Assembly (NCBI GenBank): GCA_902593905.1 | Contig: CACJKF010000001.1 | Span: 124,001 to 188,000, forward strand | DNA from: an uncultured Pelagibacteraceae bacterium | GTDB taxonomy: Bacteria; Pseudomonadota; Alphaproteobacteria; Pelagibacterales; Pelagibacteraceae | Direction of reading: 5' to 3' | Length of the DNA stretch: 64,000 nucleotides | Shown: positions 45,878 through 64,000 of the stretch, piece by piece | Layout of the letters: the number at the start of each line of letters is the position of its first letter | Position numbering within the stretch: position 1 is the first letter of the stretch | Notes under the pieces: generated by a model | Database searches by the model: none | What the model saw: the letters and a program-made list of their open reading frames with translations, nothing else | What the model was told of the DNA's origin: nothing | Position numbers and translations under genes: made by a program

Positions 45878-46297
45878 ATGAGTATTATTGAAGAAAAATG
45901 TAAACAAAAAGGTGTAAGACTCACCGATCAAAGGAAAGTAATAGCAAAAATTCTGTCTGAGTCTAAAGAAGTTTATGGATCGAAGGATCATCCAGATGTG
46001 GACGAACTTCATAAAAGAGTTACATCCATTGATGACAAAATTAGTATTGCTACAGTGTATAGAACTGTAAAACTTTTTGAAGAGGCAGGAATACTAGTTA
46101 AACATGATTTTAAAGCAGGTAAGGCGCGTTACGAAATAAACGATGATCATAACCATTTAATCGATATTAATAGTGGTGAAATTGTTGAATTTGTTGATAA
46201 AGATATAGAGGAACTTCAAAAAAAAATAGCAAAAAAATTAGGATATAATTTAGTGGACCATAAACTTGAATTATACGGATCTAAAATTAAAAAATAA
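45878..46297 (+). CDS. Fur-family transcriptional regulator (Fur/Mur-like)
   Basis: GVRLTDQRKVIAKIL, ISIATVYRTVKLFEEAGIL, NDDHNHLIDINSGEIVEF. Confidence 0.93.
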   Translation: MSIIEEKCKQKGVRLTDQRKVIAKILSESKEVYGSKDHPDVDELHKRVTSIDDKISIATVYRTVKLFEEAGILVKHDFKAGKARYEINDDHNHLIDINSGEIVEFVDKDIEELQKKIAKKLGYNLVDHKLELYGSKIKK

Positions 46298-60862: not shown

Positions 60863-62076
60863 TATTTTACCTTTTCAAAAACTAAAGTGGCATTGGTCCC
60901 GCCGAAGCCGAAACTATTCGACATTATAGAATTTAAATTCACATCTTTTTCTACTTTTGTAACAATTGGATATTTTTTTGCTTCCTCATCCATATCGCTA
61001 ATATTAGCTGATGCAGCAATAAAATTATTTTTCATCATAATTAAACTATAAACAGCCTCATGAACTGAAGTAGCTCCTAGAGAATGACCTGCAAGAGATT
61101 TGGTTGAGCTAATTTTTGGTTTATAGTCATTGAACACTTCTCCTACAGCTTTCAATTCTGTTATATCTCCGACAGGTGTTGATGTACCATGAGTATTTAT
61201 ATAATCGATTTTGTTTTTTGTAGTGCTCAATGCCATTTTCATGCATCTGACTGCTCCCTCTCCAGAAGGAGCCACCATGTCATAACCATCAGATGTAGCA
61301 CCGTATCCTGTAAGCTCTGCATATATTTTTGCACCTCTTGACTTTGCGTGCTCGTACTCCTCTAAAACTAACACCCCTCCTCCACCTGAGATAACAAAGC
61401 CATCTCGTGTTTTATCATAGGGCCTAGAAGCTTTTTCAGGAGTATCATTATATTTTGAGGAAAGAGCTGTCATAGCATCAAACATTGCAGTCATTGCGAA
61501 ATGTACTTCATCGCTTCCGCCTGCAAAAATAATTTTTTGTTTTCCTAATTGAATTAACTCCATGGCATTACCAATACAATGACCACTGGTCGCGCAAGCT
61601 GAACTGATTGTGTAGTTAACTCCTTTTATTTTAAATGGCACTGCAAGAGTTGCTGATGCAGTGCTAGACATAGTTCTTGGTACAACAAAAGGACCCATTC
61701 TTTTAGGACTTTTTTCTCTTGTTTTATCTGCAGCTAATATTACGTTTTCAATGGACGGCCCGCCAGATCCCATAATCATTCCAGTAGTTATGTTACTGAT
61801 ATCTTTTTCCTCTAAACCTGAGTCTTTTACAGCTTCATTCATAGAAACATAATTATAAGCTGATCCGGGTCCCATAAATCTTATAAATTTTCTATCTACA
61901 TAGTCCTCAAGTTTTATATTTGGTTTTCCATGAACATGACTTTTCAAATTATATTCTTTGTACTCTTCAGAAAACGTAATTCCAGATTTAGCGTTAATTA
62001 GCGACTTCAAAACTTCTTCTTGATTGTTTCCTAAACAAGAGACCACACCTATTCCAGTTACCACAACTCTTTTCAT
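60862..62076 (-). CDS. fabB: Beta-ketoacyl-ACP synthase I
   Basis: [53 protein letters not shown]. Confidence 0.98.
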
Positions 62077-62576
62077 GACTTAAACAATCCTACCTTTAAA
62101 TTTTCTGCTGTATAAATTATTTTACTATCAGCGCTCAAAATACCGTTTGCTAACCCAACAGCAGTTCCCTCTTTCTTTAAAATTCTCTTCATATTTATTT
62201 CATAAGTAGCCATTTTAATATTTTTTAAAACCTCACCAGTAAATTTTACAGAATTTACCCCTAAAGCTCTACCTTTTCCTGGCTCTCCGATCCAACCTAA
62301 GTAAAACCCAACTAATTGCCACATAGCATCTAACCCAAGGCAACCTGGCATAACTGGGTCTTTTTTAAAATGACAATCAAAAAACCACAAATTATCTTTG
62401 ATATCAAGTTCGGCTTTAATAAATCCTTTTTTAAATTCACCAGCATCTTTCTTAATTTCAGTAATTCTATCAAACATTAACATAGGAGGCAGTGGAAGTT
62501 TTGCATTACCCTCTCCAAATAACTTTCCCTCTCCACACGAAATTAGTTCATCATAACTATAGCTATTTTTTTGCAT
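62073..62576 (-). CDS. fabA: Beta-hydroxydecanoyl-ACP dehydratase
   Basis: [38 protein letters not shown]. Confidence 0.98.
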
Positions 62577-62628
62577 GATTTAAAAACAGTTTTACTTGAT
62601 TTAGCAAATGTTTCATATATATTTATAA

Positions 62629-62645
62629 TTTAGAATGATTATAAA
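62629..62645. promoter_or_regulatory. ICE/Irr-box-like operator between fabA and irr
   Basis: TTTAGAA-TGA-TTATAAA vs ICE TTTAGAA-N3-TTCTAAA (13/14 arm positions). Confidence 0.65.
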
Positions 62646-62668
62646 CTATAAAATAATAGAGAAAAAAA

Positions 62669-63076
62669 GTGAAAAAAATTGATATTTTTAACAAATTAAG
62701 AACATCAGGCTTAAGGCCAACTAAACAAAGAGTAGAAATAGCTAAATTTTTATTTGAAAGAGAAAAAACATTTCATTTTACTGTAGAAAGTTTGAACAAA
62801 CTTTTAGAAAAAAAAACAACTTCTAAATTTGCTCTGGCTACAATTTATAATACTGTGCATGCTTTTAAAAATGCTGGTCACTTAAGCGAATTGGAAGTAA
62901 AGGGAAATAAAACTTATTTTGATACCAATGTGTCAAACCACCATCATTTTTATGATAGTGAAACTTCAGAGTTGATAGATATAGACGAGAAAGAAGTAGT
63001 TATTCAAAAAATTCCAAAAGCACCTAATGGTAAAAAAATTAAAAACATAGAGGTATTTATAAATTTGAAAAATTGA
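62669..63076 (+). CDS. irr: Irr-type Fur-family regulator (GTG start possible/ORF as given)
   Basis: GLRPTKQRVEIAKFLF, FALATIYNTVHAFKNAGHL, SNHHHFYDSETSELIDI (HHH); adjacent to fabA-fabB-fabI as in alphaproteobacteria. Confidence 0.87.
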   Translation: MKKIDIFNKLRTSGLRPTKQRVEIAKFLFEREKTFHFTVESLNKLLEKKTTSKFALATIYNTVHAFKNAGHLSELEVKGNKTYFDTNVSNHHHFYDSETSELIDIDEKEVVIQKIPKAPNGKKIKNIEVFINLKN

Positions 63077-63098
63077 CAGTTTGTCGCTTGTTTTTCAC

Positions 63099-63115
63099 TT
63101 TAGAACTATTATAAA
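63099..63115. promoter_or_regulatory. ICE/Irr-box-like operator upstream of katG
   Basis: TTTAGAA-CTA-TTATAAA, same arms as the box at 62629; 10 bp before katG ATG. Confidence 0.65.
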
Positions 63116-63125
63116 CTAGAATTAA

Positions 63126-64000
<875 letters not shown>

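Follow-up and report, generated by a model that had tools for sequence, protein, structure and literature searches.

Predicted Irr operators in front of irr and katG of Pelagibacteraceae, in a unit probably descended from an irr-rubrerythrin module

This work reveals that, in a SAR11 bacterium (Pelagibacteraceae), nearly the same palindromic box precedes both the regulatory gene irr and katG, which encodes a catalase-peroxidase. The sites, their conservation, their loss together with irr, the geometry of the surrounding promoters and the exchange of the gene behind them are direct results. They make it highly probable that both boxes are operators through which Irr represses katG and its own gene until a signal, presumably haem and/or peroxide, releases it, and that the module descends from an irr-rubrerythrin unit. 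The window analysed here, a stretch of 64,000 nucleotides with an A+T content of ~70%, belongs to a host genome of 848,189 bases (848 kb) that is 77% complete; among named relatives, single-cell genomes of Pelagibacteraceae are closest, HIMB058 being somewhat more distant. The relevant parts are as follows (window numbering).

45878 to 46297, plus strand: another regulator of the Fur family, of Fur/Mur type (Fur models match best)
62073 to 62576, minus strand: fabA, oriented divergently from irr (251.9 bits with the NCBIfam fabA model, above the cut-off)
62629 to 62645, plus strand: predicted Irr operator of irr, TTTAGAA-TGA-TTATAAA (sequence, genome count, conservation with at most one mismatch in 41 of 70 family loci)
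62669 to 63076, plus strand: irr, a 135-residue Fur-family regulator with an HHH motif and no cysteine (best match NCBIfam IrrA; Pfam FUR)
63099 to 63115, plus strand: predicted Irr operator of katG, TTTAGAA-CTA-TTATAAA (sequence, genome count, conservation, promoter spacing)
63126 to 64000, plus strand, extending past the window to 65297: katG, a catalase-peroxidase of 723 residues

Profile matches bear out the gene calls of an earlier note on this DNA (divergent fabA, irr and katG). The full open reading frame of KatG (recovered in locus L133) passes the TIGR00198 equivalog with 1021 bits for a cut-off of 770, and the divergent fabA/irr arrangement is found in 70/70 family loci analysed.

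Two conserved boxes in front of irr and katG

The 20-mers before irr (TTTAGAATGATTATAAACTA, 62629-62648) and katG (TTTAGAACTATTATAAACTA, 63099-63118) are present as the earlier note had described them; they differ in three central bases only, and the katG box ends 10 bp ahead of the ATG at 63126. Each box matches 13 of the 14 arm bases of the ICE consensus TTTAGAA-N3-TTCTAAA, which confirms the claimed distance of one arm position. The single deviation (C to A) is the same across the family, the right-arm A being present in 57/57 downstream and 36/40 upstream boxes. A whole-genome scan for the 17-bp core TTTAGAA-N3-TTATAAA, which the earlier note had proposed, returned two exact sites, one before irr and one before katG, with 0.31 expected by base composition, and a reversed-pattern control gave no exact match in the whole host genome. 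With up to two mismatches, the motif is not enriched (46/43 matches in the host genome versus 55/58 for the reversed control), and only exact or near-exact sites therefore carry meaning.

Phylogenetic footprinting also had the outcome anticipated by the earlier note. Among close relatives, the 14 arm positions are conserved at 99.3% in 53 distinct fabA-irr spacers versus 77% elsewhere in the spacer, and at 99.7% in 44 distinct irr-katG spacers versus 87% for the flanks; by comparison, irr third codon positions are 64.5% conserved. Across the family, a box with at most one mismatch occurs in 58/70 spacers between irr and the next gene and in 41/70 fabA-irr spacers, where dinucleotide shuffles lead to expectations of 0.13 and 0.19, respectively. 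The box is thus both conserved at irr and katG orthologues and far more frequent there than in shuffled sequence. In the g2 members, and likewise in part of g1 where the katG box persists, the irr box is absent or degraded, which suggests that, of the two functions, control of the enzyme is retained more strongly. Within the irr-katG spacer, TGACAGTTTGTCGCTTG (63074-63090, plus strand) overlaps the irr stop codon and is almost invariant in close relatives; it holds a short inverted repeat (GACA-GTT-TGTC) and represents a conserved but unexplained element.

Promoter geometry and direction of control

The promoter elements predicted around the two boxes are the following.

62596 to 62601, plus strand: predicted irr -35, TTGATT, 16 bp from TATATT and inside a block (TTTTACTTGATTTA) that is invariant in 53 distinct relatives
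62618 to 62623, plus strand: predicted irr -10, TATATT, inside the strongly conserved block TTCATATATATTT
63088 to 63093, plus strand: weak -35-like TTGTTT, 16 bp upstream of TATAAA
63110 to 63115, plus strand: predicted katG -10, TATAAA, the last six bases of the katG box

The earlier suggestion of a TATAAA -10 element inside each box is plausible at katG and rbr, where a TTGACN motif lies 15-17 bp ahead of the in-box TATAAA in 42 box-bearing loci, so that bound Irr would cover both the spacer and the -10. The clade to which the window belongs has a weak -35 at katG (TTGTTT), the clear TTGACN form occurring in other lineages. The suggestion does not hold at irr, where TTGATT-16-TATATT lies just upstream of the box (TTGA-to-box distance of 31-33 bp in 35/40 loci) and places the predicted start site, expected at about 62629-62631, inside the box itself. 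Occlusion-type repression fits both of these predicted positions. Published data on R. sphaeroides show binding of Irr to the promoters of mbfA and ccpA, with the mapped 5' end of mbfA falling within the Irr box (PMC3413700). In the window's own clade, 10 bp (8 bp in several relatives) separate the end of the predicted katG -10 from the ATG, so that a katG transcript made from here may have little or no leader.

The same positions bear on the alternative that Irr is an activator of katG and irr and not their repressor, positive control by ICE-type sites being possible in Bradyrhizobium. Judging by its title, Rudolph et al. 2006 (a reference given in PMC2864753) reportedly deals with ICE in positive as well as negative control in B. 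japonicum, which would speak for activation. The rise of the rbr transcript in iron-limited Ca. P. ubique (1.57-fold, P=0.025; PMC2864753) points the same way. However, the box lies over the katG -10 and the predicted irr start, where a bound protein usually blocks RNA polymerase, and activation seems to us improbable. Under repression by Irr, which we favour, an Irr dimer on the katG box would shut off the katG promoter, and Irr on its own gene would occupy the predicted start site and damp its own synthesis. Sufficient haem, or peroxide damage to haem- or iron-loaded Irr, would lift repression and allow the peroxide scavenger to be made.

The regulator and its possible signal

Among NCBIfam profiles, the window regulator scores best with IrrA (147.4 bits, cut-off 150) and Irr (133.8), followed by PerRA (67.2); the Irr profile thus outscores those of Fur, PerR and Zur, and the PerR profiles (31-67 bits) stay far below their cut-offs of 180-250. 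The histidine cluster reads SNHHHFYD, and HHH is found in 69/70 family members. As the window Irr has no cysteine, the Cys-Pro haem regulatory motif of the B. japonicum type is absent from it, and no CP occurs in any of the 70 family Irr proteins. In B. japonicum, haem-derived iron together with H2O2 leads to self-oxidation of Irr at the His cluster, a behaviour likened to that of PerR by the authors, who also cite work in which oxidative stress promotes Irr degradation (PMC4700492). A release of Irr by peroxide or haem would suit KatG, a haem catalase, as well as rubrerythrin with its di-iron site. The earlier argument that a haem sensor should control a haem enzyme is not specific, since the non-haem iron enzyme rubrerythrin occupies the same operator slot in further SAR11 lineages and in the majority of sampled alphaproteobacteria; the reading of the katG box as an Irr operator is retained.

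The mild rise of rbr noted above also argues against a simple iron-only model, since a plain iron-scarcity repressor should lower this transcript, and the irr transcript of Ca. P. ubique tracked stationary phase and not iron (PMC2864753). For the SAR11 Irr, we infer binding, repression and signal (haem and/or peroxide). In R. sphaeroides, katE is higher in an irr mutant yet has neither an Irr box nor Irr binding (PMC3413700), which indicates that Irr effects on catalase can be indirect. OxyR was considered as a regulator of katG and rejected, since the host genome yielded a single LysR-type protein, which the NCBIfam ranking places nearest to GcvA/YafC, with all matches under the cut-off, and does not mark as OxyR-like.

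Loss of the box together with irr

The boxes might instead serve as operators for the other Fur-family regulator (Fur/Mur) or for one yet to be recognised, given that Fur-family boxes are AT-rich and can resemble one another and that the host genome encodes a Fur paralogue. Genomes without irr argue against this view. A box with at most one mismatch is found in 50/52 family irr-katG loci versus 1/20 readable katG loci of irr-less genomes, 19 of which have no such box (Fisher p=3e-14, uncorrected for kinship). In three g2 genomes, irr is deleted, fabA and katG adjoin and no box is present; in g3 irr-less genomes, the box has decayed to 2-3 mismatches, and one of them (G130, locus L233) has a relic of irr, interrupted early by an in-frame stop, beside a three-mismatch box upstream of katG. 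The irr-less g2 and g3 genomes, including those with fabA-katG synteny, retain the second Fur-family gene; the box vanishes with irr while the Fur paralogue stays, and it therefore follows Irr and not Fur. In addition, the box is one base away from the Irr ICE, and the classical ICE is carried by irr-to-rubrerythrin spacers class-wide. An exception is G006 (83% complete; loci L144 and L232), which is without irr yet has the irr promoter and a perfect box directly before katG, adjoining fabA. Ownership by a regulator other than Irr is thus quite improbable, and the Fur/Mur-type paralogue (45878 to 46297) is unlikely to be the protein that binds the box. The earlier attribution to Irr is supported by the IrrA-like regulator, by conservation at orthologous loci and by the loss of the box from katG where irr is lost; the regulation itself is our inference.

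That the similarity reflects a conserved -10 element of an AT-rich genome, with TATAAA in the right arm and no regulator bound, is very hard to believe, since the left arm TTTAGAA is conserved as well as the right one, the likely irr -10 sits elsewhere than the box, and the motif, which outside these two loci is no more frequent than chance predicts, disappears with irr.

Enzyme exchange behind the operator

In a class-wide alphaproteobacterial sample, rubrerythrin lies directly downstream of irr in 65/87 loci, and a classical ICE with 0-2 mismatches separates the two genes in 42 of these 65, where mononucleotide shuffles predict ~0.08; this ICE often stands immediately before a TTGAC -35. Eight loci were read in the sister SAR11 family, seven being irr-rubrerythrin with an ICE and one katG. 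Within Pelagibacteraceae, all 18 loci without katG carry rubrerythrin in the slot; the box before the -35 is often retained there, and a second box lies over the spacer and -10, 30-32 bp downstream, about three helical turns away. No katG was found in 18/18 rubrerythrin genomes and no rubrerythrin in 51/51 katG genomes, with queries that find their targets elsewhere and in a set where many genomes are incomplete. Slot content, either rubrerythrin or one of three KatG types, changes nine times on a FabA+Irr tree (a quick tree with incomplete support). This comparison of loci shows irr followed by rubrerythrin, with a classical ICE, as the apparent older alphaproteobacterial layout, and KatG as having repeatedly taken the place of rubrerythrin behind the operator in Pelagibacteraceae. 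The irr-katG unit of this family would be a descendant of that module, with KatG exchanged in several times behind the same operator.

KatG types 69-70% and 95-97% identical to the window KatG occur in the same slot of close relatives (L016-L018, L025, L028, L031, L033); such differing types in one slot suggest gene exchange at the locus. An alphaproteobacterium from outside the SAR11 order (L320, 2240-2500) has a fabA/irr-katG arrangement with two ICE-like sites in the spacer, apparently the result of an independent enzyme exchange. In a literature covered largely at title level, we found no earlier announcement of the irr-to-rubrerythrin module; Rodionov et al. 2006, said to be the main computational study of the Irr regulon, may list it.

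Target set and significance

A wider Irr regulon was considered for the host genome and rejected: there is a single further one-mismatch site (C1:74699), flanked by genes for a TRAP transporter substrate-binding protein and a hydroxyacid dehydrogenase, and two-mismatch matches are at control level. This one-mismatch host site (L075, about 1501) and an exact site of a relative (L136, 1236) have similar flanking sequence. Off-locus exact matches in 42 relatives are mostly within genes. In small SAR11 genera, exact or palindromic intergenic boxes occur in L137 (1507), L147 (1539) and L138 (1504), ahead of genes resembling sulfide:quinone reductase, persulfide dioxygenase and uracil permease; they may belong to a wider regulon or have arisen by chance.

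No heterotroph is commoner in the surface ocean than SAR11, whose control of peroxide defence has, to our knowledge, not been described. We tentatively propose, as a possibility that falls somewhat short of an even chance, that SAR11 Irr is no longer a global iron regulator but a local peroxide/haem switch of one exchangeable scavenger gene, in place of OxyR or PerR, with an operator slot that took rubrerythrin and at least three KatG types. Among Pelagibacteraceae, katG is reported to be shared by most genera from offshore waters, but not by coastal ones (PMC12636525). Rubrerythrin is suggested here as the stand-in where katG is missing, with a candidate regulator and operator for both enzymes. 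The locus is, moreover, a clear example from nature of an operator that stays put while the enzyme behind it is swapped, and the genomes that lose operator and regulator together act as its control group.

Comparison with known systems

The unit shares with the Irr system of Rhizobiales and Rhodobacter a Fur-family Irr, a palindromic site of the TTTAGAA-N3-TTCTAAA type and a box over the start region of its targets, as for mbfA (PMC3413700). It differs in that the right arm is fixed as TTATAAA in Pelagibacteraceae, that the SAR11 target set has apparently shrunk to irr and the next gene, and that the catalase-peroxidase gene itself bears a box. Gene order and an operator between irr and the next gene are common to the alphaproteobacterial irr-to-rubrerythrin module, whereas here KatG replaces rubrerythrin, the ICE upstream of the -35 is reduced or lost and the second box lies over spacer and -10. 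In the mycobacterial FurA-KatG and actinomycete CatR/FurS-type systems, a Fur-family gene directly upstream of katG is thought to control katG and itself; the layout is alike, but the Fur-family branch and the operator are different, and the arrangement has no shared ancestry. With PerR, Irr has been compared for its peroxide-linked oxidation at a histidine/iron site (PMC4700492), although the window regulator scores far below the cut-offs of PerR models. Judged by its sequence, the irr-katG unit is of the known Irr/ICE kind, and what appears new is its derived right arm, the box over the -10, an apparently tiny target set and an exchangeable enzyme.
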